Positions 30,300 through 60,843 of a stretch of DNA of 64,000 bases are shown piece after piece. This DNA is from a virus. Every line of letters starts with the position of its first letter. Position 1 is the stretch's first letter. Position numbers and translations under genes: made by a program. The stretch spans positions 30,390-94,389 of IMG/VR virus record IMGVR_UViG_3300017917_002740. The stretch is one strand, 5' to 3'. The notes beneath the pieces were generated by a model that did no database searches, had not been told where the DNA came from, and saw nothing but the letters and a program-made list of their open reading frames with translations.

Positions 30300-30410
30300 T
30301 GGTGTGGCCGGTAGGATTCGAACCTACAGAGGCTGTGTCTAAGACGGCGCCCCATTCCCAAGTGCGTTTCGCAACGGACTGGAGGTCTACCATATTCCAC
30401 TGACGACCAC
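30300..30410 (-). tRNA. Oversized tRNA gene, isotype uncertain (Leu favoured)
   Basis: On the minus strand: 7-bp acceptor GTGGTCG / CGGCCAC (one G-T), discriminator A and an encoded CCA, a normal T arm (GTAGG-TTCGAAT-CCTAC) and a D-loop with GGAATATGGTAG. It is 111 nt including CCA, about 20-35 nt longer than normal. A good anticodon arm with loop CTTAGAC (anticodon UAG, Leu) lies directly before the T arm at 17-nt arm length, but then some 35 nt containing a small GCG-AAA-CGC hairpin sit between the D arm and this arm. Alternative: a class II tRNA with a misread anticodon arm. Confidence 0.7.
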
Positions 30411-39956: not shown

Positions 39957-41205
39957 ACTGTTTGAATTCCGGAGTGATATCTGTGAAACTTTGATTTCTG
40001 GTTTGATCTAATCTACGATTAAATTCCACACAGTCTGTCCATAGATCGCTGCGATCTCTGGCTCGTAGATAGTTTTGATTATCTTCTATCTGTCTTAGAG
40101 TATAGTTTAGCAGCATTGGGTGTTTTTTAATAATTTCATAATCCAATATTTTGTTCTTCATAGCTTCCAGTCTATCATAAGCCACATCAACTAACGGACG
40201 AGGCAATACTTGAGCTGATAACACGTTAGGATACTCAACTCTATGAGTATGGAACACTATGCCAAGGTCATTTAAAAAGTATTCGATCATTTTGTCTAAG
40301 ATTAGAATGTTACTGATTTGTACAGTAACAGCACCGACTATTCTACTTATGTTTGGTATAGTTTGTATCTGTTTGATGTTATGAACTAATTCAGCCCAAG
40401 ACGCATTGCCACGTATGTACTCATAACTGTCGCCAATACCGTCTATACTGACATTGACCGCTATGCTCTTAAACTTAGGCCAGTATTCCCATATAGTTCT
40501 ATTGCTCTTACCTAACATAGACAAGTTAGTTGCATACTTGATTTCGATTTGATTACCGTATGGAGCCAGCATATCAAGTATTCTATAATGCTGTGGATCC
40601 ATTAGAGGTTCACCACCAGCAAACTCTACACGTCTAAAATGCGGTAAATTCTTTTCTAAACTTGCCCACCATTCTGGATTGTCCTGGAACTTGTCTAAGA
40701 ATGGTTTTTCTTTGAGATTGTGTTCCTTGACAATATGGAACATAATATTATTTTCTTTTTCGTAGAATTCTTCTACCTGATCCCAATCGTTCCAAGATGT
40801 ACTGTCCATAGGATGGCACATGCGGCATTTGAGATTACACAGATTATTGAGTTTTAATTCCATTGTGGGAATTTCAAAAGGCATCGTGTAATCATGTTGC
40901 ATCTTAGACAGTGCATTAGGATATAGATTAATACGTGCTTCTGGTATTTCTCCCTTGATATGACGCTGGCGCAGACTTTCTACACCTTGATCCTCTAATG
41001 AGAAACAAGGCTCGCACTCTTTAGGACGTTCGCCAATTAGGACCTGCCTGCGAATACGCTGCATAGTCTCGCCATTCCAATGATATTCAAGTGGTGCTTG
41101 ATCGATGAATCCAATAGGATGACTGCGACAACAGACACAGATAGCACCGTCTTCACGTGTTGCTAATCCTGTAAAAGGATGCATACAAAATGTTTTACTT
41201 TGCAT
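39949..41205 (-). CDS. Radical SAM protein with N-terminal twitch-like module, copy 3
   Basis: 418 residues from ATG 41205; the frame extends to 41262 inside the upstream gene, but 41205 gives the same start (QSKTFCMHPFTGLATREDG) as its paralogues. N-terminal Cys C7, C23, C25-C26, C64, C67; core CNLKCRMC (C123, C127, C130); FAGGEPLMDPQ; VNVSIDGIGDSYEYIRG. It overlaps the PP-loop gene by 11 nt, so the two are translated together. Confidence 0.85.
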   Translation of the reverse strand: MQSKTFCMHPFTGLATREDGAICVCCRSHPIGFIDQAPLEYHWNGETMQRIRRQVLIGERPKECEPCFSLEDQGVESLRQRHIKGEIPEARINLYPNALSKMQHDYTMPFEIPTMELKLNNLCNLKCRMCHPMDSTSWNDWDQVEEFYEKENNIMFHIVKEHNLKEKPFLDKFQDNPEWWASLEKNLPHFRRVEFAGGEPLMDPQHYRILDMLAPYGNQIEIKYATNLSMLGKSNRTIWEYWPKFKSIAVNVSIDGIGDSYEYIRGNASWAELVHNIKQIQTIPNISRIVGAVTVQISNILILDKMIEYFLNDLGIVFHTHRVEYPNVLSAQVLPRPLVDVAYDRLEAMKNKILDYEIIKKHPMLLNYTLRQIEDNQNYLRARDRSDLWTDCVEFNRRLDQTRNQSFTDITPEFKQYV

Positions 41206-41935
41206 TGTCAATAGCCCACTGTCTTTCTTTACACCAGAAACATTTACCGCATGTCGGAACATATTGTCCTGGTGTGTATGTTTGATAATCTATCTCTTTG
41301 AATTCGCCTTCGCAACTACGAGTCATCTCAAATAACGACATGAGATCTAATCTTATATATTGTTTAACTACCCAAGATTTTTCAACAAATCTAAAAGGAT
41401 GTATAGCCCACTTGTTCATATGTTGCATAATCCTTAGATGCTGATTATCTTCTGATGGTTCTATATCTCTTTCAACCATGCCATCGAAATCATGTCCTCT
41501 GGGATTGCGTGTTACAGCATTATAATAAGCATCGCAGTTTTCCCAATGACAGATATATTCAGCAAATGCTCGTTGCTCAATATTATCTCCGCTGACTAAT
41601 TTGTTATATTCATCTTTGAGAGACGGACCAATATTACCATATTCTAATTCTGGTGCAATAAAATTTGTATGTCTATAAAAGTTTATATTAGGAAATTTAA
41701 CTTTCATCCAATTAAAAATCTTTAAACTATCCCAACTCTGCCAGGGTCTTGTTTTCCACATGCGAGTATGGCTAATACAATGTATTTCAAAACCTTCTAT
41801 TTTTTTGTTAGTAATAATATCGCATAACAAGTAGGTCATTAAAGCACTGTCTGCACCGCCACTAAGGCCTATTGCAATTCTACGCCAGTGTGTGTCGAAT
41901 GGAATTACTACACCATCAATGTTGTAGTTGAGCAT
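41195..41935 (-). CDS. QueC/ExsB-like PP-loop ATP pyrophosphatase
   Basis: 246 residues with the PP-loop SGGADSALM (25-33), a HTRMWKT segment and a C-terminal CGKCFWCKER, close to the QueC zinc-site pattern. It is not the queC at the left edge and is too divergent for a certain substrate. PP-loop enzymes adenylate a carboxylate or amide oxygen, then add ammonia or sulfur. Sits between a PLP-type enzyme and a twitch rSAM in one overlapping operon. Confidence 0.75.
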   Translation of the reverse strand: MLNYNIDGVVIPFDTHWRRIAIGLSGGADSALMTYLLCDIITNKKIEGFEIHCISHTRMWKTRPWQSWDSLKIFNWMKVKFPNINFYRHTNFIAPELEYGNIGPSLKDEYNKLVSGDNIEQRAFAEYICHWENCDAYYNAVTRNPRGHDFDGMVERDIEPSEDNQHLRIMQHMNKWAIHPFRFVEKSWVVKQYIRLDLMSLFEMTRSCEGEFKEIDYQTYTPGQYVPTCGKCFWCKERQWAIDNAK

Positions 41936-42820: not shown

Positions 42821-43489
42821 ATGCTCAACTCTACCAATTATACAGTACCTCAAGACATACTACAACAGGCAGTAAATTCTATTCCTGGTATCGATTCTCG
42901 CTTGTCGTTAAATCAGCCAACTGGTAGATTTTTTAATGACCCGTGGGAACTCAAACCCGAGTTCAAAGGCACAGTTTGGGAAACTATATTGAATATTTTG
43001 GATGAACCAAAAGGCGAAGCTCGATTAATTAAATTAACACCAGGTGAATCATATCCCAGCCATGCTGACATTGACGATCGCTGGCACCTTGCTCTAACAG
43101 GAAATAACTCTTATCTAATAGATTTAGAAAACTGTGTGATGCACCGAACAGACAAAAATGGAATATGGTACAGCATGAATGCAGGTCACAGGCACACAGC
43201 AGCAAATTTTGGCAGTGAAGACAGAATTCAGTTGGTAGTTCGAAAATTATTGCCGATGCCAAATATTAAAAATCCGGTTGAAGTTGCTATCACTTTAAAA
43301 ACAGTAGTTGAAGATCGTAGATTTATATTCGACGATGTAATTAGTCCGTGGTTAAATTATGCTTACAAAAAAGGAATAGTGGATAATTTTAAAGGTGAAG
43401 ATTTAATTGCTACTATGACAGTAGAATCAGATCATGTTGATGAATTAACAGAATTAACCAAAGAATATTTTGTGTTGGCCATAAAATGA
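42821..43489 (+). CDS. 2OG/Fe(II) oxygenase-like, aspartyl-hydroxylase type
   Basis: 222 residues. ARLIKLTPGESYPSHADID gives H81-x-D83, followed by VMHRTDKNGIWYSMNAGHRH (H123/H125) and R135 (SEDRIQLVV), matching the aspartyl/asparaginyl beta-hydroxylase fold (HxD...H...R). The substrate is unknown. Operon head; the next gene starts in its last codon. Confidence 0.72.
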   Translation: MLNSTNYTVPQDILQQAVNSIPGIDSRLSLNQPTGRFFNDPWELKPEFKGTVWETILNILDEPKGEARLIKLTPGESYPSHADIDDRWHLALTGNNSYLIDLENCVMHRTDKNGIWYSMNAGHRHTAANFGSEDRIQLVVRKLLPMPNIKNPVEVAITLKTVVEDRRFIFDDVISPWLNYAYKKGIVDNFKGEDLIATMTVESDHVDELTELTKEYFVLAIK

Positions 43490-44184
43490 ATATAGATAAT
43501 TGGACACCTTTTTATAAAATCAATCCAGATGATGGGCAGCTTATAGAAACAAATTTGATTTATACGCCATTGATAAGCCCAGACGGTAAAATATTCTGTA
43601 TGAATTTTGACCATCAGCATTCTTATCAAAACGAACAATTAGCACATTGGTTACCTCATAGGCCTTACTATACCAAAGAAATGGTCAACTTCTTTTTTAA
43701 TAGAGAACTAAAATATCTTACGGTATTTGCCAACAGATCTTGGGCACCTAAGGTATTAGAAATAGACATAGAAAAACAACAGATCTTTTTTGAATGGTCT
43801 GGAGAAACCTGTAATCAAATAGTTTACACAGACAAAAAGATTGAAGATTATTGTCCTGATTGGAAAGCACAGATGTTGTCCATACTAAAAGACATAGTTG
43901 TCAGCGGCTACTACAAAACCAGTTTGTATCCTCACTGTTATTTTATTAGCAATGGTCAATTAAAAACTTTTGACTTTTACGGTTGTGTAGAAATCAAAGA
44001 TCCCTATGTGTCTATAAATGATATTAAAGGTATGATCGGAGAAACATCTGGTCCTCGATTTGAAGCAGCAGTCAAGGACAATATGTTAAATGTTGAAATA
44101 CTGTTTAAAGATGCTCTAAAAACTTGGGTTAAATGGCCCGACGATGTACTGCCTATGTTTTACGAGGAGTTATTTGGTGATTAA
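43486..44184 (+). CDS. Kinase-fold-like protein, paralogue of 51222-51926
   Basis: 232 residues with a two-part sequence like small kinases: an N-terminal beta-rich part (APKVLEIDIEKQQIFFEWSG) and a C-terminal YKTSLYPHCYFISNGQLK then FDFYGC that lines up with the HxN/DFG region of APH/Bud32/Rio-type kinases, but without a clear catalytic Asp in the first position. It resembles the gene at 51222-51926 over most of its length. Either a degenerate kinase or a binding protein. No family recognised. Confidence 0.5.
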   Translation: MNIDNWTPFYKINPDDGQLIETNLIYTPLISPDGKIFCMNFDHQHSYQNEQLAHWLPHRPYYTKEMVNFFFNRELKYLTVFANRSWAPKVLEIDIEKQQIFFEWSGETCNQIVYTDKKIEDYCPDWKAQMLSILKDIVVSGYYKTSLYPHCYFISNGQLKTFDFYGCVEIKDPYVSINDIKGMIGETSGPRFEAAVKDNMLNVEILFKDALKTWVKWPDDVLPMFYEELFGD

Positions 44185-44761: not shown

Positions 44762-45263
44762 TTGGGATGAAATTATCGGTAGTCTTTTTAATGGTGTGCC
44801 TATTACTGCTGATAAAAGTAAATGGAATCTTTCAACCCCCGGCTACTTAGAAATTTACAAATCATGGGAAGATGCTAAGTTTAATATGAGCGCAATTAAA
44901 TGGATTAATTATTATCCCAGAACACACTATCCAGAAGAAGTAGATACTAAGATGTGTGAGCAGTTGGGTATCAATAAATTACGAGCTTGGATTAGTAGAA
45001 TAGATCCTGGTTATTGCGCACCTTGGCATTGGGACGTTGACGACAATGAAGAACAATATCTTAGTCTTGGAGAAATACAAAGATACAGTTGTTTTATCAG
45101 CAAACCTGCCAATGGGCAAATGTTTCAGTTAGGCAATCAGTATTATACTGCGCAGCCTCAAGGTACTATTGTTAAATGGGACGATTACAAACAATGGCAT
45201 GCTGGAGTTAATGCTGGGACTACTTCTAAGTTTATGTATCACATTATGGGGTATAGGCACTGA
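44754..45263 (+). CDS. 2OG/Fe(II) oxygenase-like
   Basis: 169 residues from GTG 44754, with GAGGGA before it. CAPWHWDVDDNEEQY gives H92-x-D94 and YKQWHAGVNAG the third His (H149). It resembles the previous product (ISRIDPGYCAPWHWD vs INRVDPGRTVPLHID) over the whole length, so the two arose by duplication. Its end overlaps the convergent 45244-45765 by 20 nt. Confidence 0.65.
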   Translation: MINWDEIIGSLFNGVPITADKSKWNLSTPGYLEIYKSWEDAKFNMSAIKWINYYPRTHYPEEVDTKMCEQLGINKLRAWISRIDPGYCAPWHWDVDDNEEQYLSLGEIQRYSCFISKPANGQMFQLGNQYYTAQPQGTIVKWDDYKQWHAGVNAGTTSKFMYHIMGYRH

Positions 45264-45765
45264 TCTGCAGCGTTAATCTTGTAGCCATACTAATATTAAC
45301 TACTCCGTGATAGCACATGGGGTCATCCCATAAAAACAAATCACCAGCTTTGTAATCAGCTAACAGATAATTATCATAGACAAAAACGTGTCCAGGTTGA
45401 TAATCTAACAAAGGCATAGTCCATCTTTGACATTTTGAAACTTGTGTGACGTGAGGATCAAAATGCATGGGCTGCATCTGACCAGGTTTTAATTTAATGA
45501 TCCACCAATGGTATTCACCTTCGATATCTATAGGCATTTTAATATCTAAATGTTTTAAACAATCTGTATTCTTAGTATACTGGCAGAAGTGATGATTCCC
45601 AGCAGGATAACCAGCTTGTTCTATAGCTGTACGTGCTGCATCAAATTCAGGAGTACCTCTCCATTTTTCAGGTTGATACACAGGTGTAACATCACCATCG
45701 TTGTTAAGTAGGATGTCTAATAGTTCTGGAGTAATCCAGTCTCGATAATTGCCTATGAGTTTCAT
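45244..45765 (-). CDS. 2OG/Fe(II) oxygenase-like
   Basis: 173 residues: MQPMHFDPHVTQ (H101-x-D103), DYKAGDLFLWDDPMCYHGVVN (H153) and R163, the HxD...H...R pattern of prolyl-hydroxylase/AspH-type folds. The start KLIGNYRDWIT parallels IKLVGNFNNLINW of the 44177 gene. Shares the last five-gene minus operon with two radical SAM genes. Confidence 0.7.
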   Translation of the reverse strand: MKLIGNYRDWITPELLDILLNNDGDVTPVYQPEKWRGTPEFDAARTAIEQAGYPAGNHHFCQYTKNTDCLKHLDIKMPIDIEGEYHWWIIKLKPGQMQPMHFDPHVTQVSKCQRWTMPLLDYQPGHVFVYDNYLLADYKAGDLFLWDDPMCYHGVVNISMATRLTLQISAYTP

Positions 45766-46568
45766 TAATACGACTCTATATGATCTATGCCTAACTTTTT
45801 ACGGAATTCGTCTGTGAACTTTCCGTCAATGCGCAGACTATAGCTGGGCTCCATAATTCGTTCACCACCATGCCAGTCTTGATCATTCCACCATGCGGCA
45901 CGAGTGTTTAGATATATTTTGTTTTTGTGTTCAGGGTCCCAGATGTAAAATGCTTTCTTTGTATTGGGTCTTATGTGTATGAATTCATTACGATGAGGAA
46001 ATGTAACATTCATACCGTTCTTGGCATCGAGGTCTCTATGTTCGAAAGGAATGCCATCTGCTTCACAATGGAAAAATATAACACGTCCGATATGCTCGAA
46101 TAAATTTTGATCAATAAGCTGTTCGACCCATTTAACTACATTAGGAAAATAAGCAGCTTCTGGAGTTAACTTACGAGGAGCAGTACGATCGTCCCAAGAA
46201 CCTTCTTCCCATAGGAAATAATAAATGTACGGGTCATATGCGCCCATGGCCATTTTTAAGAATCTTGTGAATTTGTTTCTCTGTTGATAATTGCCAAAGT
46301 CTCGGTACAACGGCATTCCAGCAACCTTGATAGGATCATCATCTGGCAATGCTAAGAATTCATCTTTGGCCTTGTATATAGGTTTCCAGTGAGGTTGATA
46401 ACTCATTCGCTCAAAGGTAAAGCCCGGGGCCATCCATGTACCTTCTTTGGCATATTCTCTGGCTTCAGCAAAACCTCTAATGATTTCAGGCTGTAGTCGA
46501 TCAAACTCAGCCATGTCTAAGTAAGACTCTAAATCAAAATAAGGTTGATGATTAATACCTTTGATCAT
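45765..46568 (-). CDS. 2OG/Fe(II) oxygenase-like, aspartyl-hydroxylase type
   Basis: 267 residues. RVIFFHCEADGIPFEHRDLD gives H177-x-D179; DWHGGERI contains H233; R246 follows (SYSLRIDGK). Overlaps the radical-SAM gene by one base at each end (46568 and 45765), so both genes must be translated in sequence. The catalytic arrangement is that of the AspH/cupin 2OG family. Substrate unknown. Confidence 0.68.
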   Translation of the reverse strand: MIKGINHQPYFDLESYLDMAEFDRLQPEIIRGFAEAREYAKEGTWMAPGFTFERMSYQPHWKPIYKAKDEFLALPDDDPIKVAGMPLYRDFGNYQQRNKFTRFLKMAMGAYDPYIYYFLWEEGSWDDRTAPRKLTPEAAYFPNVVKWVEQLIDQNLFEHIGRVIFFHCEADGIPFEHRDLDAKNGMNVTFPHRNEFIHIRPNTKKAFYIWDPEHKNKIYLNTRAAWWNDQDWHGGERIMEPSYSLRIDGKFTDEFRKKLGIDHIESY

Positions 46569-47455
46569 TACACATCTCTGGCTTTTTGTTTGGCCAATGG
46601 CCAGATCACTTTTTCAATCCTGTTCTCTGGGCATAGGTTACACTGCGGTATAATTTCTAACAATGTATCTGTAAAGTGTTTGATAAATTCGTCAGAGTCA
46701 TAGGGACTGCAGGCACGATATTGATTAAGCAGATCAACTGCTCGCTGTTCAACATTAAACTGATTGACAAAGTCGTCTTTGAAAGCAACCAAGTGACACT
46801 TGTATAAATGACCTTTTACAAAATAATGACACTTGTTGGCAGAACAATTTTCATGAGCAATCGCAGGATCGCTGTCGTGTAAGTAGATAACACCGTCACG
46901 AATTTCTTTTCTACTGCTGGTGTGTAGTTTCCAACGCTGTCTAATATCAGCTACTAACTTTCCATCCACATAGTATTGTTTACCTGGATCTTCAAATTTA
47001 CGACCCAAGGTTGTTTTGGTTATTTCTGTGGTTGTATAAGTGTACTTGGATAATAATTCTTCTACATGAAACTTAGTTTCGTCGTAGTGTGAGGGATCGT
47101 GTACAGATATGTCTAACCATATGCCAAGATCGATGATGTCCTGAGTTAGTTCTTTGTTTGTACCAAAATATGTGCCGTTGGTGACCACAGAAAAGTCTGT
47201 GATCTCTGGCCAAAGTTTTCTAAGATTGTAGGCCCAGTTCCATAGGTCTGGATTAGCATAGGGTTCGCCACCCAGAATATTCATCATGTCTACGCTAAGG
47301 ATTTTTGACCAATCCTCGTAGTAGGCTCTGTAGTCCTCAAACTTATAGTGTCCTTTGAAAACCTTGTCATTGTAGGTTATGCAGTTGTCACAGGTGAGAT
47401 TACACACATTGGTAATGTAGTGATCGCCTTCTAATATTCTATATTTTTTAGTCAT
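46568..47455 (-). CDS. Radical SAM protein, paralogue of 50289-51176
   Basis: 295 residues with CNLTCDNC (C18, C22, C25), NILGGEPYANPDLWNW, VTNGTYFG, and a C-terminal half with CHYFVKGHLYKCHL, ENCSANKC and QCNLCPENR, which could bind a second cluster. It matches the gene at 50289-51176 throughout (same ITYND..FKGH.KF, HDSDPAIAH). Overlaps the next gene upstream by 4 nt. Confidence 0.88.
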   Translation of the reverse strand: MTKKYRILEGDHYITNVCNLTCDNCITYNDKVFKGHYKFEDYRAYYEDWSKILSVDMMNILGGEPYANPDLWNWAYNLRKLWPEITDFSVVTNGTYFGTNKELTQDIIDLGIWLDISVHDPSHYDETKFHVEELLSKYTYTTTEITKTTLGRKFEDPGKQYYVDGKLVADIRQRWKLHTSSRKEIRDGVIYLHDSDPAIAHENCSANKCHYFVKGHLYKCHLVAFKDDFVNQFNVEQRAVDLLNQYRACSPYDSDEFIKHFTDTLLEIIPQCNLCPENRIEKVIWPLAKQKARDV

Positions 47456-48489
47456 CGTCTTTGATATTTAACCGGTACTTCATCCTGTAATTTCATGCCC
47501 TTGTTTATCACAGCATCACGTAGCATTACCTGATGCATCAAGTTGGTAGGCGGAACTCCTGGAACAAAACTGCCCCATGGACCGCATACCAGTTCGTCAA
47601 GGTCCACGCTTTTGGCATCAGCCCATTGTATGATCCTGTGGGTGGCGCCATTGATCTTAACCATGTAGTGATAGATATTGTCGTCAGCTAAGATCTTTTC
47701 CCATGTATAATTTAATTTGGTAACCTGTCTATACACTTCATAGACCAATTCACTCAAGAACAATCTGGGTTCGTCTGGACAACGTCCTATGTCTGCGCCG
47801 CCCCTGATCCTAAATTCTTCTACAAAGTCTTTGAATGTCTGTATTTCTTCAAGTATAAAAGGAATTTGATCTATGCTGGATAATGTGTAATTTATATTCT
47901 TAATTCTTAGGCCAACTTCACGACAATTTTGTATGGCCTGCAGTTGTTTCTTATGTACTGCTTCACCCTGATAGTCAGGATGGTTTAGACCTACGGTGAC
48001 AAATTCGCAACCTGCTGCGATCAGCTGTTTACAAAAATCCATGCTGCTGAGTTTTAGTCCATTGGTCAGCACATTAAGCTCTCTGTTGGTTTTAGTTCTA
48101 ATAGCAGTGATCAATTCACAGAGGTCATTGCGCATGGTCGGCTCAGCACCTGCCAGAGTCACACTATACCCATCATCGGGGAATGAGTTGATCTGATCTA
48201 TGATAGAGTCTATGGACTTGTCTTTCTTTTTGTTATCTGGTTCTTGATAGCAGTGCGGGCAGGTAAGATTGCAGCGATCAGTTACTTCAAGCACATATCC
48301 GCCTGCGTCATAGTGTTCAGGATGATGCTTGAGTGTTTCTTGGAATATTTTTTCACGCTCGATCATATGTTCAGAATAACCATGCTCTGGGCAGGTTTTA
48401 CTGATCCACAACTCTCTGCCTCGTTCAAATCTGTGTGCTGGTATGTGTCTGTAGCAGATCTCGCACAATGACATAGTTTCTTTGATCAT
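47452..48489 (-). CDS. Radical SAM protein with N-terminal zinc motif (Tes/MJ0619-like)
   Basis: 345 residues. An N-terminal Zn module (C9, C12, then C33, H36 in CEICYRHIPAH ... SKTCPEHG) precedes the core CNLTCPHC (C73, C77, C80). This domain order occurs in the archaeal MJ0619 methyltransferase and Tes tetraether synthase families, which act on lipids or pterins at unactivated carbons. LAGAEPTMRND replaces GGEP. It may catalyse C-C bond formation or methylation (inference from family). Operon with a 2OG oxygenase upstream (4-nt overlap). Confidence 0.78.
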   Translation of the reverse strand: MIKETMSLCEICYRHIPAHRFERGRELWISKTCPEHGYSEHMIEREKIFQETLKHHPEHYDAGGYVLEVTDRCNLTCPHCYQEPDNKKKDKSIDSIIDQINSFPDDGYSVTLAGAEPTMRNDLCELITAIRTKTNRELNVLTNGLKLSSMDFCKQLIAAGCEFVTVGLNHPDYQGEAVHKKQLQAIQNCREVGLRIKNINYTLSSIDQIPFILEEIQTFKDFVEEFRIRGGADIGRCPDEPRLFLSELVYEVYRQVTKLNYTWEKILADDNIYHYMVKINGATHRIIQWADAKSVDLDELVCGPWGSFVPGVPPTNLMHQVMLRDAVINKGMKLQDEVPVKYQRR

Positions 48490-49127
48490 TGCGGTACTCC
48501 GTTGATCATAAAAGGCAAACTAATACGGCTGCCGTAGTCGTTGGGCCAGCCTTCGGGTGCCTGTGCCACCACCATGTGATTCATCCATCCTGGCCACAAA
48601 ATTAAATCACCTTCTTCTACGTCTACGGTGATCTCTAATGAACCTTTGGGAAAGCTGCTGCGTATATGTGGTTCGTACAACAGAGCATGAGGATGTTCAA
48701 ACACCATTTGTTGTACTCCTTGACATTCAAGATATAGGCCACCGCCGATTAAAAATTCTGAATGATTGTGCATAAAGCCAATACCAGAAATATAAGTCTG
48801 GCACCACATGTCTGTGATCTCAGGTTTGAGAGTTTTATCTACTCTAAGTGTATCAAAATAATTGAGAACATGTGGCATGATTTGCTCTATGGCCGATTGC
48901 ATCTCAGGTCTAAGATGCAGTAGTTTTCCATTTGGATCCATGGTATCTTTGGTCGGAAATGTGCTGTAATTTGGACTACCTCCGGTGCTGGTACCGATCC
49001 ATGGTGGAATAAGTGCATCTGGTTGTGACCATAACTCATTGAGATAGGGAAGAATGCCGTTTAGTATTTCTCGGCTGTTGGCTATTTTGGTACGGATAAT
49101 TGGGCTGGGGAACCAGTATTCAGTCAT
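48486..49127 (-). CDS. 2OG-Fe(II) oxygenase-like (family-5-like)
   Basis: 213 residues starting TEYWFPSPIIRTKI, with SGIGFMHNHSEFLIGGGLYLE (H120/H122 and E124 as likely metal-site residues), VEEGDLILWPGWMNHMV (H184) and R201. This is the pattern of the 2OG-FeII_Oxy_5 group. Heads the five-gene minus operon; CATAAATA lies 5 nt before the start. The substrate is unknown. Confidence 0.75.
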   Translation of the reverse strand: MTEYWFPSPIIRTKIANSREILNGILPYLNELWSQPDALIPPWIGTSTGGSPNYSTFPTKDTMDPNGKLLHLRPEMQSAIEQIMPHVLNYFDTLRVDKTLKPEITDMWCQTYISGIGFMHNHSEFLIGGGLYLECQGVQQMVFEHPHALLYEPHIRSSFPKGSLEITVDVEEGDLILWPGWMNHMVVAQAPEGWPNDYGSRISLPFMINGVPQ

Positions 49128-49168: not shown

Positions 49169-50305
49169 ATGGAACTCAACTATCACCTGGACAATTTACC
49201 AAATCATCAGATCATCAAAACTGAAGGTTATTGGAACTATACCGTCAATAAAAAATTATTAGATCCTTTATGCGGTAATACTTCGTTTATCTTTGGTTAT
49301 AACAATAAATCGATCTTAGACTCGATGTACAAACTGCAATCCCAGATAGGCTTCTTGCGTGGTATGAGCAACGAGACCTGTAACGAAAATCAAGAATTGC
49401 TGACGGAGATCTGTCAACGTGGCGGATTTGACAGCGTGGCCTGGGCAGTCAGCGGCAGTGATGCTGTGGAAGCTGCTGTCTATATCAATGACGAATACTG
49501 GCGCAAATTAGAAAAGGATCGTCCTACCATAGTTACATTTACACCAGGTTATCACGGCACAACTTATCTGGCAAAACTTTTTAGAGAAGAATATCCCACA
49601 GGCGAACGTGCCGCGGTCATAGAACGTAGTCTTGATGATGCTGACACATTGTTGACCTTGGAAACTCTGTTAGAACTAAATCCCAAGATTGGAGCAGTAT
49701 TGATAGAGTCTGCACCGTGGAATGGCGGTCTTAGATTATGGTCGCAGGCATGGTGGAATGATCTTAGGCTCCTATGCGATCAATACAACATCAATTTAAT
49801 AGTAGATGATGTATTAGGAGGAGTGGGCAAGTTAGGACATTTCTTTAGTCACCAAAGATACGGAATACAGCCAGACATCGTGGCCATGGGCAAAGCATTG
49901 ACCAATGGTTATAGTCCTCTGGGCTGTGCCTGCACTACCAAGCGGATTTCCAATGTGATCAAAGATTCTTGGAATTTCGGTCATACCTGGTCGCCCAATA
50001 TGGCTGGCATTGGTGCTGCATTAGAAGTCTGTAAGATCTATGACACCATAGACTTTAATGCCATAGAAATGCGGTTAAAAAAGTTAGGTGACGAATTAAA
50101 AGCAGCAGGTCTGATCAAGGATTACACAGCAGCAGGACTTTTGTTTTACATCACGTTAGATAAAACTTATTCGCCAGATGCTCTATACACAGCAGGCATC
50201 AACGGCACGCTCAACGATAATAATGGCATATTCATCTGTGCGCCTGCTATTGCTGACAGCGAGTATTTTTCTGAATTATCTAATAGACTTAGATCTTTTC
50301 TTTAA
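49169..50305 (+). CDS. Class III aminotransferase (PLP)
   Basis: 378 residues of the BioA/GSA-type class III family: AVSGSDAVEAAV (98-region), TFTPGYHGTTY, LIVDDVLGGVGKLG (D213 at the pyridine nitrogen) and MGKALTNGYSPLGC with the PLP lysine K242. It transfers an amino group from or to a carbonyl substrate. All key residues are kept, so it should be active. Single-gene plus unit that ends convergently with 50289, overlapping 17 nt. Confidence 0.9.
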   Translation: MELNYHLDNLPNHQIIKTEGYWNYTVNKKLLDPLCGNTSFIFGYNNKSILDSMYKLQSQIGFLRGMSNETCNENQELLTEICQRGGFDSVAWAVSGSDAVEAAVYINDEYWRKLEKDRPTIVTFTPGYHGTTYLAKLFREEYPTGERAAVIERSLDDADTLLTLETLLELNPKIGAVLIESAPWNGGLRLWSQAWWNDLRLLCDQYNINLIVDDVLGGVGKLGHFFSHQRYGIQPDIVAMGKALTNGYSPLGCACTTKRISNVIKDSWNFGHTWSPNMAGIGAALEVCKIYDTIDFNAIEMRLKKLGDELKAAGLIKDYTAAGLLFYITLDKTYSPDALYTAGINGTLNDNNGIFICAPAIADSEYFSELSNRLRSFL

Positions 50306-51176
50306 CCGGCTTTAACGGATATAGTTTCTTATTGATCCTATACTCTGGACAGAGCTTACACTGCGGAACTGGTTCTTCTAATGCTCCTATGAAACTTGAT
50401 ATTTTTTCATTGGAGTCAAATGGACTACAGAAATCAGATTCATTTAGTAATTGTTTAGATGCAGGATCAATATTAAATTGATTGGTTAGATCCTCGTGTA
50501 TAGAAGTTAGAAAACACTTGTATAGGTCGCCCCTGACTACGTAATGACATAATCTTGCCTTGCAGTTTTTGTGAGCTATTTCTGGATCGCTGTCATGCAT
50601 GTGAATAATACCGTTGTGTATCATCTTAGTTGAGTGTGTGCCAAACTCATAGACCTGACTGAGCTTAACAGCCAGTCTACCATCTACATAATAATTTTCT
50701 TCTTGATAGGTAGCATTGGTCATGTTAGTGCCGATAGTGATATCTTTGCTGTAATCGTACACAGATAAAATTTCTTCAACTTGACTTTTGGCACGATCAT
50801 AGTGAGCAGGATCGTGCAATGAAATATCTAACCATAAACGTTGATCAATGATAGCTCGAGAAAGATCCGTTTCGTGTAGATATGTGCCATTGGTACAGAC
50901 ACAAAAATCTTCAAGGTCTGGCCAACATTGTCTCAGTCCTATAACCCAATTCAACAAGTCTGGATTAGCATAGGGCTCACCGCCCAAAATACAGATCTTA
51001 GGCGGCTGTAAAATTTCTCCCCAACGCTGACATTTATCTTGGTAGTCTGCGAATTTAAAATGACCTTTGAATCTTAGATCATTGTATGTGATACAATTTT
51101 CACAGGTAAGGTTACACACATTGGTAATGTAAAAGCACAGATAGGCTTCTGTGATCATTGTGAATTTTGGATCCAT
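50289..51176 (-). CDS. Radical SAM protein, paralogue of 46568-47455
   Basis: 295 residues from ATG 51176; the open frame goes on to 51443 but that part runs through the divergent gene and across the promoter. CNLTCENC (C21, C25, C28), ILGGEPYANPDLLNW, CTNGTYLH, HDSDPEIAHKNC, LCHYVVRGDLYKCFL, QCKLCPEYR. Same length and order of motifs as its partner. Preceded by AATAAATA at 4 nt. Confidence 0.87.
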   Translation of the reverse strand: MDPKFTMITEAYLCFYITNVCNLTCENCITYNDLRFKGHFKFADYQDKCQRWGEILQPPKICILGGEPYANPDLLNWVIGLRQCWPDLEDFCVCTNGTYLHETDLSRAIIDQRLWLDISLHDPAHYDRAKSQVEEILSVYDYSKDITIGTNMTNATYQEENYYVDGRLAVKLSQVYEFGTHSTKMIHNGIIHMHDSDPEIAHKNCKARLCHYVVRGDLYKCFLTSIHEDLTNQFNIDPASKQLLNESDFCSPFDSNEKISSFIGALEEPVPQCKLCPEYRINKKLYPLKPVKEKI

Positions 51177-51180
51177 GCAA

Positions 51181-51212
51181 TATTTATTGGCAGTAATAAC
51201 AGCATATAAATA
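51181..51212. promoter_or_regulatory. Divergent late promoter pair
   Basis: AATAAATA on the minus strand (51181-51188), 4 nt from ATG 51176, and a perfect T4-type TATAAATA on the plus strand (51205-51212), 9 nt from ATG 51222. Supports ATG choice for both genes. Confidence 0.65.
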
Positions 51213-51221
51213 TTGCACACC

Positions 51222-51926
51222 ATGAAATTCCATTATTATTACAATCAAATTCCCGGAGGCGAGCCCTGGAGAAACAATTTGATTTACACCAGTTTGATCA
51301 GCGAGGACAAAAAAACTTTTGTCCAATGGTATCACAACGACAGCGAATATCACAAAGGCATGAATGAAGTTGTTGATCCAGCATTGATGAATGAAAAGTG
51401 GAGCAGAGAACTCTGCTTTCTTAATTACATGAATCGATGGCACCCAGAATCTGTGCCAGAAATTTTAGATATTGATTTATTGGAAAAAAAGATTTATTTA
51501 AAAATTGACGGTGTGGATCTATGGCAACGCAGTTTAGACAACCACAACTGCGCTTTTGATCAGATAGTGCCTGATTGGCAGGAACAGATGTTGGCCATAT
51601 TTAAAAATCATATAGATCTAAATCTATGGAAATACAGCCTTCACCCCAGCAGTTATTTCATTGTAGATGGTCAGTTAAAAAGCATAAACTACTTTTTCAC
51701 TTACAGCTCAGATGACGGTCCTATCACGGTCAGAGATCATCTCAGCCATATCAGCGAAGGTCGTAGAGCAGAAATGAAACCCAAGACAGAAGCCATGGGC
51801 ATAGACTGGGACACACCTCAAAGTCTGTATACCATGCAGATGTTGGCCTTTGAAAGTTTTAGAAGTAACTATCCCACGGACTTTATAGATCGAGCCAAGA
51901 GTCTTTATGACCACCTCAAAGATTAA
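51222..51926 (+). CDS. Kinase-fold-like protein, paralogue of 43486-44184
   Basis: 234 residues from ATG 51222, chosen because of the TATAAATA motif; an upstream TTG (51213) is inside the leader. KFHYYYNQIPGGEPWRNNL, PEILDIDLLEKKIYLKIDG, YSLHPSSYFIVDGQLKS follow the same order as the 43486 gene. The DFG-like position is INY rather than FDF, so phosphotransfer activity is doubtful. Sits next to a radical SAM gene in both loci (divergent here). Confidence 0.5.
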   Translation: MKFHYYYNQIPGGEPWRNNLIYTSLISEDKKTFVQWYHNDSEYHKGMNEVVDPALMNEKWSRELCFLNYMNRWHPESVPEILDIDLLEKKIYLKIDGVDLWQRSLDNHNCAFDQIVPDWQEQMLAIFKNHIDLNLWKYSLHPSSYFIVDGQLKSINYFFTYSSDDGPITVRDHLSHISEGRRAEMKPKTEAMGIDWDTPQSLYTMQMLAFESFRSNYPTDFIDRAKSLYDHLKD

Positions 51927-53919
51927 ACACTTTTATCTGTTTACCAAAGACAGCTATGGTACAAAAACCGTGTCTGTGCCATTGCTTTGGTGTAGCATGA
52001 AAACCTACTACGAAGAACAAAGTGCAAAAAGCGCAGAGTGGCAGTGGCACGATCCTTTTATAACCAGACGTTCTGATGCGGAGATATTTGCAGAGTTAGA
52101 ACGTGATCCTCCTGATGTTGCTGGCTTCAGTGTCTATGTGTGGAATGAGGTATACATGGATCAGCTGGCAGCAACGGTAAAACAGCTTTATCCTAACTGC
52201 TTGATCATCTACGGAGGCCCACAGCAGAATACCAAACACAATGAAAATTATTTCGAAGAAAAGCCTTGGGTAGATATTGTGTTCCCCAGCGATGTCTACG
52301 GAGAGATAGTGATCAAAGAAGTGTTGGACAATTACCCCGTACAAGACATACGGTCTATACCCACTGCCTACTATCAAAATGCCGCAGGACTAACAGCAGA
52401 AAGCGGCATACCCATAGACAAGCGTGGGTTTCAATGGCCTCACAATATTTTTAAATCTCAAGAGCAGTATATTTTACCCACACTACAATCTGCTAAAAAC
52501 CAAGATTACGACATAGTGGCTCTCTACGACACAGCACGAGGCTGTCCTTATCGCTGCATCTATTGCGAGTGGGGAGGCGGTACACATACCAAGGTGGTCA
52601 AGAAACCATTCGGCACGGTGCTTGACGAATTGACATGGTTGGCTGCAGTAGGAGAAATCACAAGAATTGAAATCACTGATGCCAACTTTGGTATTATGAG
52701 CATAGACGTTGAAATTGCTCGACACTTAGCTGAACTAAAAAACACCTACGGATATCCCAAAAACGTTGATATTACCAATGCTAAAAACAACATTGATCGA
52801 GTATTGGACATCATGGAAATATTTTTAGAAGCTGACATGATCAGTCAGTATATCATTCCTATACAGACACTTGATGAAACCACAAAGAAAAATATCCAAC
52901 GCACAGACATTCCATTTGAAGAACAGATCACAGGACTTGCTCGTTTAAGAAAAAACAAAAACGGTCAAAAGATGATTACATTCTTTGAGTCTATAATGGG
53001 GTTGCCAGGTGATAGTTATCAGGTCAATTGTCAGCAGATTGACACACTTTATGAACACGGACAGCCCTTGGGCAGTATGTTAAATCACACTTGGATGCTG
53101 TTACCTGAAACTCCAGCATACACGCCAGAGCTAAGACAGAAATTTAAAATCAAAACGGTCAAGAAGACCTTGGATTTTTTTACTAAAATAAAACCCGGAC
53201 GAGCAGTAACAGGTCCTATTCCAGACAACACCATGGCAGCATGGACCAACAGCTCTGTAGAAATCGTTGTGGGCACCTATAGTTATTCTACAGAAGAATG
53301 GGTCAAGATGCTGAGGTTAAACAATTTGGTCATTGCTGGAGAACGCATAGGTATCAATGATTATATTCTCAAGTACATGGTCCGTGAACATGGATTGACA
53401 CCTTCACAGGTTTTAACTGACATCATAGACTATGCCTACATCCAAGGATTTAAAGATGCTGATGTAAATGAATTTTTTAAAATGGAGCATCTACACATAA
53501 TACAATGGCTGTATCAAGACAATTTGGATTCTGGTATAGACATAGGAGAGGATTTTCCATTCCTGATCCCCTATTATGCATTTTTGCTATTAATGATCTT
53601 AGGCAATGGATCAGTGATCACTGAATTAACCGACATGCTGGCCGAGAAATACCATGATGAAAAAATCCAAGATTTGGGCAGATACATTTCAAAAAGCCTA
53701 TTAGGCACTGAATATCAAGGCACATGTTCTTTCATTACGGCATATGATTGGTTGAATTATTTTGCCAATGATAGTAAACTTATAAAGGGCACATATCAAT
53801 ATCAGACCGTAGACCCTGCACACGATTGCAGAGATTTACAGGAATATTATTGTTGGATGCTGGATCGTCACAACGAAAATCAAAGTCTTGTGGCCCAAGT
53901 GAGATTAAATGACATTTAA
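51907..53919 (+). CDS. B12-binding radical SAM protein
   Basis: 670 residues. The N-terminal region has the cobalamin-binding-type pattern PPDVAGFSVYVWNE, LIIYGGPQQNTKHN and PWVDIVFPSDVYGE (about 69-132), then the radical-SAM motif CPYRCIYC (C213, C217, C220) in a CEWGGGTHTK context, and a long C-terminal helical part. Class B rSAMs do C-methylation, ring contraction or phosphorus-C chemistry; which one is unknown. It begins 20 nt inside the kinase-like gene and ends 11 nt past the start of the acetyltransferase. Confidence 0.86.
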   Translation: MTTSKIKHFYLFTKDSYGTKTVSVPLLWCSMKTYYEEQSAKSAEWQWHDPFITRRSDAEIFAELERDPPDVAGFSVYVWNEVYMDQLAATVKQLYPNCLIIYGGPQQNTKHNENYFEEKPWVDIVFPSDVYGEIVIKEVLDNYPVQDIRSIPTAYYQNAAGLTAESGIPIDKRGFQWPHNIFKSQEQYILPTLQSAKNQDYDIVALYDTARGCPYRCIYCEWGGGTHTKVVKKPFGTVLDELTWLAAVGEITRIEITDANFGIMSIDVEIARHLAELKNTYGYPKNVDITNAKNNIDRVLDIMEIFLEADMISQYIIPIQTLDETTKKNIQRTDIPFEEQITGLARLRKNKNGQKMITFFESIMGLPGDSYQVNCQQIDTLYEHGQPLGSMLNHTWMLLPETPAYTPELRQKFKIKTVKKTLDFFTKIKPGRAVTGPIPDNTMAAWTNSSVEIVVGTYSYSTEEWVKMLRLNNLVIAGERIGINDYILKYMVREHGLTPSQVLTDIIDYAYIQGFKDADVNEFFKMEHLHIIQWLYQDNLDSGIDIGEDFPFLIPYYAFLLLMILGNGSVITELTDMLAEKYHDEKIQDLGRYISKSLLGTEYQGTCSFITAYDWLNYFANDSKLIKGTYQYQTVDPAHDCRDLQEYYCWMLDRHNENQSLVAQVRLNDI

Positions 53920-54481
53920 GATTGTACCGTGGTCCGAGGAACTTGACAGCACACTGACTGCTTTTTACGCAGAAGCGGATCGCCGCGGATTTGCAAATAA
54001 TGCCAGTCGACGTATGTTGGTTGACAGCATTGCACGTGAACGTGAGTGGGCTGTTTGGATTCTTTATTATAATGACACAGCCGTGGGTTCAGTGGCTGCA
54101 CATAGTTTTCCAGAAATGGGAGAACGCTGTTATCGTATTGCAGCTCGTACCTGTGTGTTCACAGACCTGCTGCCAGGAGCATATGGATCTGCGCTTAGAA
54201 CAAAAAGCGTGATCACTGAACATCAAAACCCCACAGCACAATTTTTAATTCCTGCCTGTCTAAGATGGACTCCAGCAAACAGCAGATTGTTCATCACATC
54301 TAATCAAAGCACCGTGGGAACACAGCGTAGGGTGCATAATATTTTTGGACCTTTGTTAGAACGACAAGGCACCATGCAGCGTATACAAGACTTAGAATAT
54401 CGAGGAACCACACAGACGGTGTGGCAGTTTTTCCCTCACGTATTTTATGAACAGATGAACAAGTATCCCAGATGGCAATGA
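53909..54481 (+). CDS. GNAT-fold acyltransferase-like protein
   Basis: 190 residues with a GNAT-like alpha/beta order: AFYAEADRRGFANN, AVWILYYNDTAVGSVAAHSF and CYRIAARTCVFTDLLPGAYG. The central VGSVAAHSF segment and following helix fit the acetyl-CoA-binding region, although the classic R/Q-x-x-G-x-G/A is not strict. It lies between the two B12-radical SAM genes and overlaps both. I recall similar proteins in marine phage genomes. Confidence 0.6.
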   Translation: MTFKIVPWSEELDSTLTAFYAEADRRGFANNASRRMLVDSIAREREWAVWILYYNDTAVGSVAAHSFPEMGERCYRIAARTCVFTDLLPGAYGSALRTKSVITEHQNPTAQFLIPACLRWTPANSRLFITSNQSTVGTQRRVHNIFGPLLERQGTMQRIQDLEYRGTTQTVWQFFPHVFYEQMNKYPRWQ

Positions 54482-56538
54482 AAAAAGTCTACCTACTATA
54501 CAGAGACACTGCGGAAGAGTCATTTCTTTCTCTGCCTTTGCTGTGGTGTTCAAGCAAGACCTATTATGAAGAAAACAGCTCAAAAGCCAACGAATGGTCG
54601 TGGGGATATCCTTACTTTGGCAAAACAGAAACTGCTGAAGAAATTTTAGCAACGCTGCGAGCAGATCCTCCTGATGTGGTAGGATTCAGCATCTATGTAT
54701 GGAACGAACAATTTTTTGATAGTGTCGCAGAGCAGGTCAAAAAAGAGTTTCCCAACTGCTGGATAGTCTACGGCGGTTTCCAACCCAGTGTCAAACACAA
54801 TCCAGATTTCTTTAGACAAAAGCCTTGGGTAGATGTTGTGGTGCCCGGCAATGTCTATGGTGAGCCTGTGATACAAGAATTATTAGACATTTATCCTAAT
54901 AAAAATTTCAGCGAAGTCATACATGTCTACTATCCAGATGCTGACGGTAATAGAATGATCAGCGACAAAACTTTTGAGAAAAAAGAATTCCGTTGGCCCA
55001 ACAATATCTTTAAGAGCCAAGAACCTTATCTGTTAGAACGAGTTGAAAGAGATAGAGGTAGGCTCAGCATCACTGCGTTTTATCAAACCAGCAGAGGCTG
55101 CCCTTATCAATGTATCTATTGTGATTGGGGTGGTGGCACCAATACCAAGACCATCAAAAAGCCTTGGGAAATAGTCAAAGACGAAATGCTATGGTTAGCA
55201 TCCGTGGCCAAAGTAGACCGTATAGAATTAACTGATGCTAACTTTGGTATCAATGCCATTGATCTTGAAACTGCCAGATACTTTGTGGAACTTAAAAAGA
55301 CCTATGGTTATCCCAAGATCTTAGACTACGAACCTGCTAAGAATCATACCAAGCGTGTGGTGGAGATCGCAGAAACATTGGCCAATGTAGACGCATTGAC
55401 CTTTCACCGTGTGAGCTTACAGAGTTTAGATCCCGTCGTACAAAAAAATGTCATAAGAATCAATGCTCCGTTAGAAGAACAGATCAGCGGCATGAAGTAC
55501 ATCGAACGCATCAGCCAAGGTCGTGTGCCTTTGTATATTGAATGTATGTTGGGCCTGCCTGGAGATAGTTATCAGGCTATCTGTAATCAAATTGACACGG
55601 TCTATGGATACGGTGTAGCACCTGGTTGGATACACAACTATGGTTGGATGCTGTTGCCCGAAAGTCCTTCATATAGTCCCGAAGGCAGGGCCAAACATAA
55701 ATTGGTCACGGTAAAGAAATGGATCAATCATAATGCCAAGCTAAAGAAAGGATTTGTCATAGAGGACAATAGTTCTTTGAATTTATTAGATCCGTTTGAA
55801 ACCAAGTATGTTGAAACGGTAGTGGGCACATATAGTTACACGCAAGAAGATTATATGCAGATGTTTAGATTGACTAACTTCTGTATCGCCACTCACATCA
55901 CTGGGGTTAATGATTACCTAATCAGATATATTGCGGATACGCACAATGTCAAACCCAGCGAAATACTCACAGAAATTTTAAATTTCATAGACGGAAAAAA
56001 TTTCGAGGATCAGGAATTGGCCAAATTGTTTGATCTGCAAAAAAGAGTTCTGCGTAATTGGATGTACGATGATCATAGCGGCAGTGGCATTGACCTTGAT
56101 CCCGAGTTTCCTTTGATGTTGGCACACCATGCATTTTTCACGATGTCTATTATGTTGCACATAGATAGTTTTTACAAAGAAATCTGTGATTTGCTAAGTT
56201 CGAAATATCAAGACACGAGAATACAAGATTTGGGAATATATCTAAAAAATTCTATCATTGATTATGAATACCAGCAAGGTAGAACGTTCGTTACTAATTA
56301 TGATTGGTCGAATTATTTTAGTAACCAGCAGACTTTGGAATTAGGCCACTATCAATATCAGTGTAATGATGAGTTTGAATTAGTTGCCAAAGATAAAAGT
56401 CAGCGATTATTAGAATATTATAAATTTGCTGCAGGTAATAATCTTAATCCTGCTGTGAAAATCTCTAAGGATATAAAGTTAATTAGTCCAGTCTTGACTA
56501 TGCCAAGTGGGTTTGACCAACGACTCTATATCAGTTAG
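54472..56538 (+). CDS. B12-binding radical SAM protein, copy 2
   Basis: 688 residues (ATG 54472, or 54478), full-length paralogue of the 51907 product: PPDVVGFSIYVWNE, IVYGGFQPSVKHNP, PWVDVVVPGNVYGE, CPYQCIYC (C210, C214, C217) in a DWGGGTNTK context, ECMLGLPGDSYQ and VVGTYSYTQED. Its last 20 codons overlap the last 20 codons of the convergent 458-residue gene, an unusually long tail-to-tail overlap. Confidence 0.86.
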   Translation: MAMKKVYLLYRDTAEESFLSLPLLWCSSKTYYEENSSKANEWSWGYPYFGKTETAEEILATLRADPPDVVGFSIYVWNEQFFDSVAEQVKKEFPNCWIVYGGFQPSVKHNPDFFRQKPWVDVVVPGNVYGEPVIQELLDIYPNKNFSEVIHVYYPDADGNRMISDKTFEKKEFRWPNNIFKSQEPYLLERVERDRGRLSITAFYQTSRGCPYQCIYCDWGGGTNTKTIKKPWEIVKDEMLWLASVAKVDRIELTDANFGINAIDLETARYFVELKKTYGYPKILDYEPAKNHTKRVVEIAETLANVDALTFHRVSLQSLDPVVQKNVIRINAPLEEQISGMKYIERISQGRVPLYIECMLGLPGDSYQAICNQIDTVYGYGVAPGWIHNYGWMLLPESPSYSPEGRAKHKLVTVKKWINHNAKLKKGFVIEDNSSLNLLDPFETKYVETVVGTYSYTQEDYMQMFRLTNFCIATHITGVNDYLIRYIADTHNVKPSEILTEILNFIDGKNFEDQELAKLFDLQKRVLRNWMYDDHSGSGIDLDPEFPLMLAHHAFFTMSIMLHIDSFYKEICDLLSSKYQDTRIQDLGIYLKNSIIDYEYQQGRTFVTNYDWSNYFSNQQTLELGHYQYQCNDEFELVAKDKSQRLLEYYKFAAGNNLNPAVKISKDIKLISPVLTMPSGFDQRLYIS

Positions 56539-59700: not shown

Positions 59701-60792
59701 TTAGACTGTTGTCCAAGCAGTTCCATCAAATACCACAGTCTTGTTAGTAACTGCAGGTACAGTACCAGACTGCATAAACACCATCATTCCCTGTTGAGGA
59801 GTTGGAATGGCTGCTGCACGAGCAGCGTCATTAGCATATACCGCCAATTGAACAGCACCTGGCAATACCAAGGTTCCATTGCCTTGGAAAACATATGCAC
59901 TGAAATTTGATCCGCCTGCTGATGTTGCAAAAATCAAATCAGATTCTGGATTAGCATCGGCCATGTTAGCTGATGCAGACAATTGATTCAACATACCAAA
60001 AGTAGATTTAAATGTTGAACCGTCATAAACACGTATTACCATACCTGCAGCTTCATCACCTGCTGCAAGACTTGTTGGGGCAGTTAACGTTCCTTTAGAA
60101 ACTAAGAAACCAATATTAGGTGGAGTTGTGCCATCTGTGATACTTCTAATAGCAAATGGATACTCTGTTAAACCTGTTACTGCAACTGTTGTGGGATTAG
60201 CAGGATTACCAAGATTAAGTTCGCCATCTGGATGACTAATAGAACTTGTAGTAATAGAACCATCAGTTTGATCTACGATTATAGTACTATCTGCTGCAAC
60301 AATACTTCCCTGAACATCACCTGTAACATTACCGTTTAGGCTGCCTGTTACATTTCCTGTAACATTACCTGTTAAGTTTCCTGTAACATTACCTGTAACA
60401 TTACCTGTAACGTTTCCAACTAAAGTTCCTCTAAGAGTACTACTTACACCGTCTACTAAAATTGTCGAATCGTCAGCTACAAAAGTGCCTTTAAATGCAT
60501 CTGCTTTAACAGTTCCAGCATAATCTGATAAATTTACTGTAGCTGTTATTAAGTTTGTAGAACTATTATATGTAAAACCAATACCAGTATGTGTTCCACC
60601 TGTAAAGATAGCTGCGGCTGCATCTTGTGCATCGTTGTTTGTGTAACCAGTAATCTGTATTCCACCTAAAGTAGAACCGTTACCGATGTATAGTCTTTGA
60701 TCATCAGTGACATACAACAACTCGCCTTGTGCAAGTGGTTGTGTCATCGCTACACGTTCTGCTTGAGTGCCTCTGCGAATCTGTAAGGGCAT
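59701..60792 (-). CDS. Tail-fibre-like protein with GNVT repeats
   Basis: 363 residues from ATG 60792, with AGGAG before it; the frame continues to 60840 across the promoter. The N-terminus PLQIRRGTQAERVAMTQPL is a known phage fibre/tropism-determinant domain start. Then come beta regions, a GNVT/GNLT repeat tract (residues about 125-160), and a C-terminal LPGAVQLAVYANDAARAAA and VFDGTAWTTV end domain. Role: receptor-binding or fibre component. Confidence 0.78.
   Translation of the reverse strand: MPLQIRRGTQAERVAMTQPLAQGELLYVTDDQRLYIGNGSTLGGIQITGYTNNDAQDAAAAIFTGGTHTGIGFTYNSSTNLITATVNLSDYAGTVKADAFKGTFVADDSTILVDGVSSTLRGTLVGNVTGNVTGNVTGNLTGNVTGNVTGSLNGNVTGDVQGSIVAADSTIIVDQTDGSITTSSISHPDGELNLGNPANPTTVAVTGLTEYPFAIRSITDGTTPPNIGFLVSKGTLTAPTSLAAGDEAAGMVIRVYDGSTFKSTFGMLNQLSASANMADANPESDLIFATSAGGSNFSAYVFQGNGTLVLPGAVQLAVYANDAARAAAIPTPQQGMMVFMQSGTVPAVTNKTVVFDGTAWTTV
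60312..60420 (-). repeat. Short tandem repeat encoding GNVT units
   Basis: Seven or more 12-nt units of the type GTTACAGGAAAT coding G-N-V-T, with one GNLT and a GSLN unit, inside the fibre gene. Copy number changes without frameshift, as the unit is 12 nt. Similar GNVTGNLNG stretches occur in the 6779-8614 fibre. Confidence 0.8.
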
Positions 60793-60824
60793 ATTAATAA
60801 CTCCTGGAAATTTCCTGTCTAATA

Positions 60825-60832
60825 TATTTATG
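60825..60832 (-). promoter_or_regulatory. Late promoter motif CATAAATA
   Basis: CATAAATA on the minus strand 32 nt upstream of ATG 60792, just after the terminator of the phosphoesterase gene. Confidence 0.55.
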
Positions 60833-60843
60833 CCAGCCAAAAA

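Follow-up and report, generated by a model that had tools for sequence, protein, structure and literature searches.

The closest solved structure to the phage protein described here is that of MJ0619, a tetraether synthase of the Tes type (GDGT-MAS) that forms a biphytanyl chain (PMC9433317). In its crystals (PDB 7TOL and 7TOM), a site with the spacing C9X2C12X20C33X2H36 holds a mononuclear iron, and in Tes chemistry an intermediate is bound to an auxiliary [Fe4S4] cluster (PMC9433317). The role of pterin methyltransferase once given to MJ0619 could not be corroborated (PMC9433317). Tes and MJ0619, which a preliminary description of the present locus had cited as two separate activities, are therefore one type of protein with one confirmed function. 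The phage setting has precedents as well. A T4-like marine phage genome carries 12 radical SAM genes (Nishimura 2017, PMC5332604), and in pelagimyophages radical SAM cassettes lie within the host-recognition cluster (Zaragoza-Solas 2020, PMC7029224).

Here, we analysed a stretch of 64,000 nucleotides (the window), positions 30,390 to 94,389 of the 94,389-base IMG/VR record IMGVR_UViG_3300017917_002740. The phage context given in the preliminary description is borne out by a T4-type DNA polymerase, a clamp loader and other replication genes in the record, the polymerase being closest to those of the T4-related jumbo phages Sinorhizobium phage Phosso (50%) and Agrobacterium phage Atu_ph07 (46%). 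The window resembles the arrays of T4-like marine phages in its many radical SAM genes and in their host-recognition location. The available text of the two reports, however, mentions neither a family of radical SAM proteins with a rubredoxin-type module nor the four-gene cassette described below (PMC5332604, PMC7029224), and we found no earlier description of either in the accessible text of the open-licence literature. Arrays of radical SAM genes were already known from T4-like aquatic phages; the cassette, complete in 44 of 47 long loci, is new here. The features discussed are collected in Table 1.

Table 1. Features of the window, with strand and distinguishing properties
Feature	Position	Strand	Properties
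Rubredoxin-module radical SAM protein, family c2	47452..48489	-	ATG start, TGA stop, 345 aa
N-terminal rubredoxin-type metal module of c2, residues 1-44	48358..48489	-	C9x2C12x20C33x2H36; PF23545; ligand numbering identical to MJ0619
Radical-SAM cluster motif of c2	48250..48273	-	C73NLTCPHC80; cysteines invariant in 45 phage proteins
C-terminal region of c2, residues 240-345	47455..47772	-	Phage-family-specific; invariant H274, W289, H319, Q320, R324, D325, N329, D336
Upstream operon gene, 2OG-Fe(II) oxygenase	48486..49127	-	PF13759 just under cut-off; phrog_81; 4-nt overlap with c2
Second radical SAM protein of the operon, downstream of c2 and lacking the rubredoxin module	46568..47455	-	4-nt overlap with c2
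c3, 2OG-Fe(II) dioxygenase-like	45765..46568	-	267 aa; invariant H177, D179, H233, R246
c1, small putative oxygenase, last gene of the overlapping operon	45244..45765	-	No Pfam match
c0, protein-kinase-fold-like	43486..44184	+	232 aa; catalytic Asp and Asn apparently replaced
Second c0 copy, kinase-fold-like	51213..51926	+	
c4, GNAT-like	53909..54481	+	190 aa; weakly similar to FeeM, an N-acyl amino acid synthase
Tail fibre with Mtd_N (major tropism determinant N-terminal domain), at island border	59701..60840	-	PF18454, E 9.6e-10

A Tes-like front half without auxiliary clusters

The first 44 residues of c2 contain C9-E-I-C12 and C33-P-E-H36-G37, with C73-N-L-T-C77-P-H-C80 following, and they match the Pfam family PF23545 (Zn_ribbon_HMPTM) at E 4.7e-15, with 55.3 bits against a cut-off of 27. 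The core matches PF04055 (Radical_SAM) at E 1.2e-16 and has the CxxxCxxC feature that marks membership of the superfamily. Together with conservation among relatives, these residues and matches show that the N-terminal CxxC...CxEHG module noticed ahead of CNLTCPHC is real. It had been called a zinc module; the module stands but the metal does not, as the equivalent site in the MJ0619 crystal binds mononuclear iron of the rubredoxin type (PMC9433317). The ligands of the phage module carry the same numbers as those of the MJ0619 rubredoxin site, position for position, and the site in c2 is probably either structural or an electron relay. When the profile of the phage family was searched against the PDB, 7TOL was the best match (E 9.5e-33), covering both module and core and well ahead of SkfB (6.4e-10) and MoaA (2.8e-7), with YydG also among the next matches; the likeness of the front module and radical-SAM core to Tes/MJ0619 thus holds.

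Beyond this front half, the phage proteins part from Tes. They are about 345 residues long as against about 500, read GAE where Tes has its GGE motif, end in an unlike C-terminus, and have neither the motif for the N-terminal auxiliary cluster ([Fe4S4]N) nor conserved cysteines for the C-terminal one ([Fe4S4]C). The first of these auxiliary motifs, a second CxxxCxxC ahead of the radical-SAM motif, occurs in all 23 cellular relatives examined, whereas the phage family has a single CxxxCxxC. This also separates c2 from the bacterial MJ0619-type proteins that share its rubredoxin module and radical-SAM core, proteins recognised by PF23545 and common in Acidobacteriota (115 of 199 sampled genomes; 12 of 398 sampled in Pseudomonadota, 11 of them over the cut-off). 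As to the C-terminal cluster, no cysteine after C80 is conserved in all members of an alignment of 45 diverse phage proteins. The only cysteines common to all 45 are C9, C12, C33, C73, C77 and C80, which leaves no candidate auxiliary cluster in c2, so that inspection of the auxiliary cysteines, suggested in the preliminary description, found none conserved beyond the module and the radical-SAM motif. Pfam likewise finds no SPASM domain in c2, and the lack of all-member C-terminal cysteines, hence of a Cys-rich auxiliary cluster domain, sets it apart from MoaA/SPASM proteins.

Model scores and phylogeny agree with this separation. With the NCBIfam model for Tes (NF045702), whose cut-off is 450, c2 scores 84.7 bits. 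The best NCBIfam profile match is instead to the radical SAM (seleno)protein TrsS (NF045646; E 1.2e-29), at 103.2 bits, far under its cut-off of 490; we know of no established function for TrsS. Phylogenetic analysis of the radical-SAM cores puts the phage proteins in a clade of their own (support 100/99), as it does the Tes proteins (97/94). A topology that nests the window protein within the Tes clade is rejected (p-AU 0.0002); a wider grouping of phage and Tes proteins is not (p-AU 0.16). One reading is that the module may be of shared descent, with other domains exchanged or lost. Rather than falling among ordinary MoaA/SPASM proteins with a module that its close homologues lack, c2 stands apart from MoaA and its module is kept in close homologues, an outcome in keeping with the Tes/MJ0619-like architecture first described.

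The activity proposed with that architecture, the joining or methylation of unactivated carbons on a lipid or pterin, fares otherwise. The Tes model score lies far below its cut-off, both auxiliary sites are absent and Tes-clade placement is rejected; as c2 has no auxiliary site of the kind that holds the substrate radical in Tes, interpretation as a lipid-joining enzyme is not supported. Pterin C-methylation, the first annotation of MJ0619, survives in the name HMPTM of the Pfam module, but this activity is uncorroborated even for MJ0619 (PMC9433317) and no pterin genes were recognised near c2, making it a barely credible role for the phage protein.

Two bacterial proteins without the rubredoxin module, one from a BD1-7 clade bacterium and one from Acidobacteria (loci L019, positions 9950-10825, and L020, positions 9884-10828), have cores that group with the phage clade at a support of 88/82, which is not significant. 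They are rare, with no homologues besides the two themselves at E<=1e-25, and like the phage proteins they have GAEPT instead of GGEPT. A C-terminal domain common to them and c2, suggested by a QWPD-like string, was rejected: their C-termini are no more phage-like than shuffled sequences. By eye, the L019 gene adjoins a heme-oxygenase-like gene and an MBOAT-like gene, and the L020 gene adjoins a lipid-acyltransferase-like gene.

A phage-only family under purifying selection

A profile scan of IMG/VR found relatives of c2 in at least 99 contigs, mostly fragments. All 95 clustered relatives that have the motif keep its exact spacing; 94 read C-x2-C-x20-C-x2-H, and the remaining one has Cys for His at the fourth ligand, as might be expected of a metal-binding position. 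Four cluster members have no motif: the two bacterial proteins just described, which belong to another family; L080, whose ORF is cut by the end of its contig; and L082, in which the module seemingly lies outside the scanned stretch. Between close relatives (pairs at 78-83% identity, where computable), dN/dS is 0.05-0.11, and the c2 family is under purifying selection. Some loci have two or three neighbouring copies of c2, each with the metal motif kept (L006, L017, L012, L013, L071, L073, L077, L079 and L081).

Outside IMG/VR, the family was sought in GenBank phages and in cellular genomes. No relative of c2 occurs among 50,697 GenBank phages, and no homologue of c3 or c4 was found in GenBank phages. 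A close cellular source was sought in about 450 sampled genomes of two phyla, Acidobacteriota and Pseudomonadota. At E<=1e-20 the c2 profile matched nothing in 149 Acidobacteriota genomes and only the L019 protein in 299 Pseudomonadota, this match covering the radical-SAM core, with the module absent. On this sampling, c2 represents a phage-only branch beside MJ0619/Tes with the smallest architecture seen here, a single cluster and a rubredoxin-type site. Such a minimal architecture would allow the role of the rubredoxin-type site to be tested apart from auxiliary clusters.

The cassette and the radical SAM island

When the genes around c2 in the different loci were clustered and then tested with profiles, a cassette of four genes emerged: c2, c3, c4 and c0. 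Among c2-seeded loci 17 kb or longer, 44 of 47 contain all four, as do 43 of 59 c3-seeded and 40 of 53 c4-seeded loci. Since the seeds were those relatives that lie nearest to the window, the fractions apply to this section of the family. Relatives of c3 are found in 366 viral contigs and those of c4 in 268. The H-x-D...H...R signature of 2OG-Fe(II) enzymes is kept in 43 of 43 c3 sequences, which marks c3 as dioxygenase-like; it has no convincing Pfam match, and profile searches of the PDB with c3 and c4 returned nothing significant. The assignment of c4 as GNAT-like, made by eye, is weak: its N-terminal part gives sub-threshold matches to the FeeM/GNAT family PF21926, with a best E of 0.049 for single proteins and of 0.002-0.06 per phage record. 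The c0 profile matches protein kinases at E 2.7e-4, and proteins of this family, about 230 residues long, have Ser and Cys at the positions of the HRD Asp and the following Asn (alignment by eye), so that c0 is apparently a degenerate kinase-fold-like protein. About 10 loci have a fatty-acid-desaturase-like gene (PF00487) within the cassette or adjoining it, and an acyl carrier protein is found in one of 27 phage records and absent from the other 26.

In the window, c2 is the second of five genes in an overlapping run, in which c3 and c1 are joined by 1-nt overlaps to the genes before them; the 4-nt and 1-nt overlaps suggest translational coupling. The radical SAM gene between c2 and c3 is not conserved beside c2 in relatives. 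Around this operon lies a very dense, putative tailoring island of 13 radical SAM proteins between 30474 and 56538 (26 kb), several of the SPASM type and two B12-binding and KedN5-like. This count includes two ORFs below the Pfam cut-off (50289-51443 and 54472-56538, the latter with an NCBIfam B12-radical-SAM match) and a third, 36427-37845, recognised by its CNLKCIMC motif. Several 2OG-type oxygenases, a class-III aminotransferase and a GDSL-type hydrolase are also present, and many members of the island are SPASM-type radical SAM proteins or Asp/Asn-hydroxylase-like oxygenases. Further 2OG-type genes continue up to 59637, followed by the Mtd_N tail fibre, and a fibre of this type lies at most 10 kb from c2 in 35 of the 47 long c2-seeded loci. 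In T4-related aquatic phages, the cassette therefore sits in the tail-fibre, or host-recognition, region. For the ORF at 50289-51443, the GTG given as start is probably wrong; starting at an ATG near 51158 would abolish its overlap with the second c0 copy.

What the cassette may modify

Judged by its motifs, c2 would have three parts: a mononuclear metal module of the rubredoxin type, a radical-SAM core with a single cluster, and a C-terminal domain that is new. Given its superfamily and its intact motifs, it is expected to split SAM, and the resulting 5'-deoxyadenosyl radical to abstract hydrogen at a C-H position. Because no auxiliary cluster is present to park the substrate radical, the outcome would more likely be an oxidation, a rearrangement, an epimerisation or the formation of an intramolecular bond than a coupling of two alkyl chains as in Tes. 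The lack of the extra clusters of Tes, together with the near-constant presence of three partner genes, makes a tailoring enzyme of unknown type more likely than a lipid-joining one. We give roughly even weight, for and against, to the proposal that c2, a phage-specific enzyme encoded in the host-recognition region, tailors a polar substrate by radical C-H chemistry without auxiliary clusters, as one step of the four-gene cassette. It would work with the c3 oxygenase, the c4 GNAT-like transferase and the degenerate kinase-fold protein c0, though genes in a single group of phages may also keep company through common descent instead of joint action. Also counting against the proposal are the weak assignment of c4, the lack of a family match for c3, the apparent replacement of the kinase catalytic residues in c0 and the desaturase-like gene near some cassettes, and no RiPP precursor or recognition element was identified. 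The polarity of the substrate is suggested by the C-terminal invariants, which are mainly polar: 14 of 22 near-invariant residues in the phage family, as compared with 8 of 23 for the cellular Tes-type proteins.

The polar substrate decorated by the cassette could perhaps be a side chain of a virion protein, or a small molecule bound to the virion or to the surface of the host. The leading special case of this proposal is post-translational modification of a tail-fibre or other virion protein, in which the cassette and the wider island of radical SAM and 2OG enzymes would alter side chains of receptor-binding proteins; we put it forward tentatively, as possible but not probable. It fits the adjacency of the cassette to Mtd_N fibres, the abundance of SPASM-type radical SAM proteins and Asp/Asn-hydroxylase-like oxygenases in the island, and the presence of the peptide-modifying enzymes SkfB and YydG among the PDB matches after MJ0619. 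Against it, neither a substrate motif nor a peptide-recognition domain was identified, and many variable phage genes near tail fibres do not act on the fibres.

A lipid substrate would bring c2 closer to Tes, with c2 acting on an acyl chain of a lipid made by the host or phage, perhaps an N-acyl amino acid produced by c4. Such a role would be consistent with MJ0619 being the closest solved structure, with identical rubredoxin ligand numbering, with the weak likeness of c4 to FeeM and with the desaturase-like gene, which would suit a lipid substrate. We nevertheless think it unlikely, given that Tes holds its intermediate on an auxiliary [Fe4S4] cluster for which c2 has neither the N-terminal motif nor all-member C-terminal cysteines, that c2 lies outside the Tes clade, that its C-terminal invariants are mostly polar, and that nearly all of the phage records examined have no acyl carrier protein. 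A more far-reaching reading, which we find rather doubtful, is that the cassette makes a novel modification, either lipid-linked (acylated or chain-coupled) or peptide-borne, by Tes-like C-H chemistry without auxiliary clusters, in a pathway that has spread through aquatic phages in their hundreds, all of them uncultured, and that cultured phages lack.

Hypermodification pathways of other phages combine radical SAM enzymes, kinases, acyltransferases and PLP enzymes, and in other systems 2OG oxygenases hydroxylate bases. The cassette might by analogy build a modified nucleobase that protects the phage DNA against restriction, and a thymidylate-synthase-like gene is indeed present in the window. 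Thymidylate synthase is common in phages, however, no further marker of such a pathway was recognised in the window, c0 apparently lacks the catalytic residues of a kinase and the cassette is located among tail genes, all of which renders a role in DNA modification very improbable. Whichever substrate it acts on, the conserved cassette offers a concrete, testable unit within the bewildering radical-SAM/2OG arrays of abundant aquatic T4-like phages.

Several other genes were observed near the cassette or in its carriers. The desaturase-like gene of L037 (8513-9217; PF00487, E 7e-11) and its relatives (cluster c41) lie between c4 and c0 in several loci. On L286, a c4-bearing phage contig of 357,559 bases, a domain of the acyl carrier protein type (PF00550, E 1.6e-14) is encoded (G615:C1:341727-341921). 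The window itself encodes, at 41195-41935, a PP-loop/QueC-like protein with a C-terminal CxxCxxC-type site and weak Pfam matches (E about 0.02-0.04). Finally, a full tryptophan halogenase (PF04820, E 1.9e-88) is found near the cassette in L033 (4049-5632) and in 14 other loci (cluster c33).
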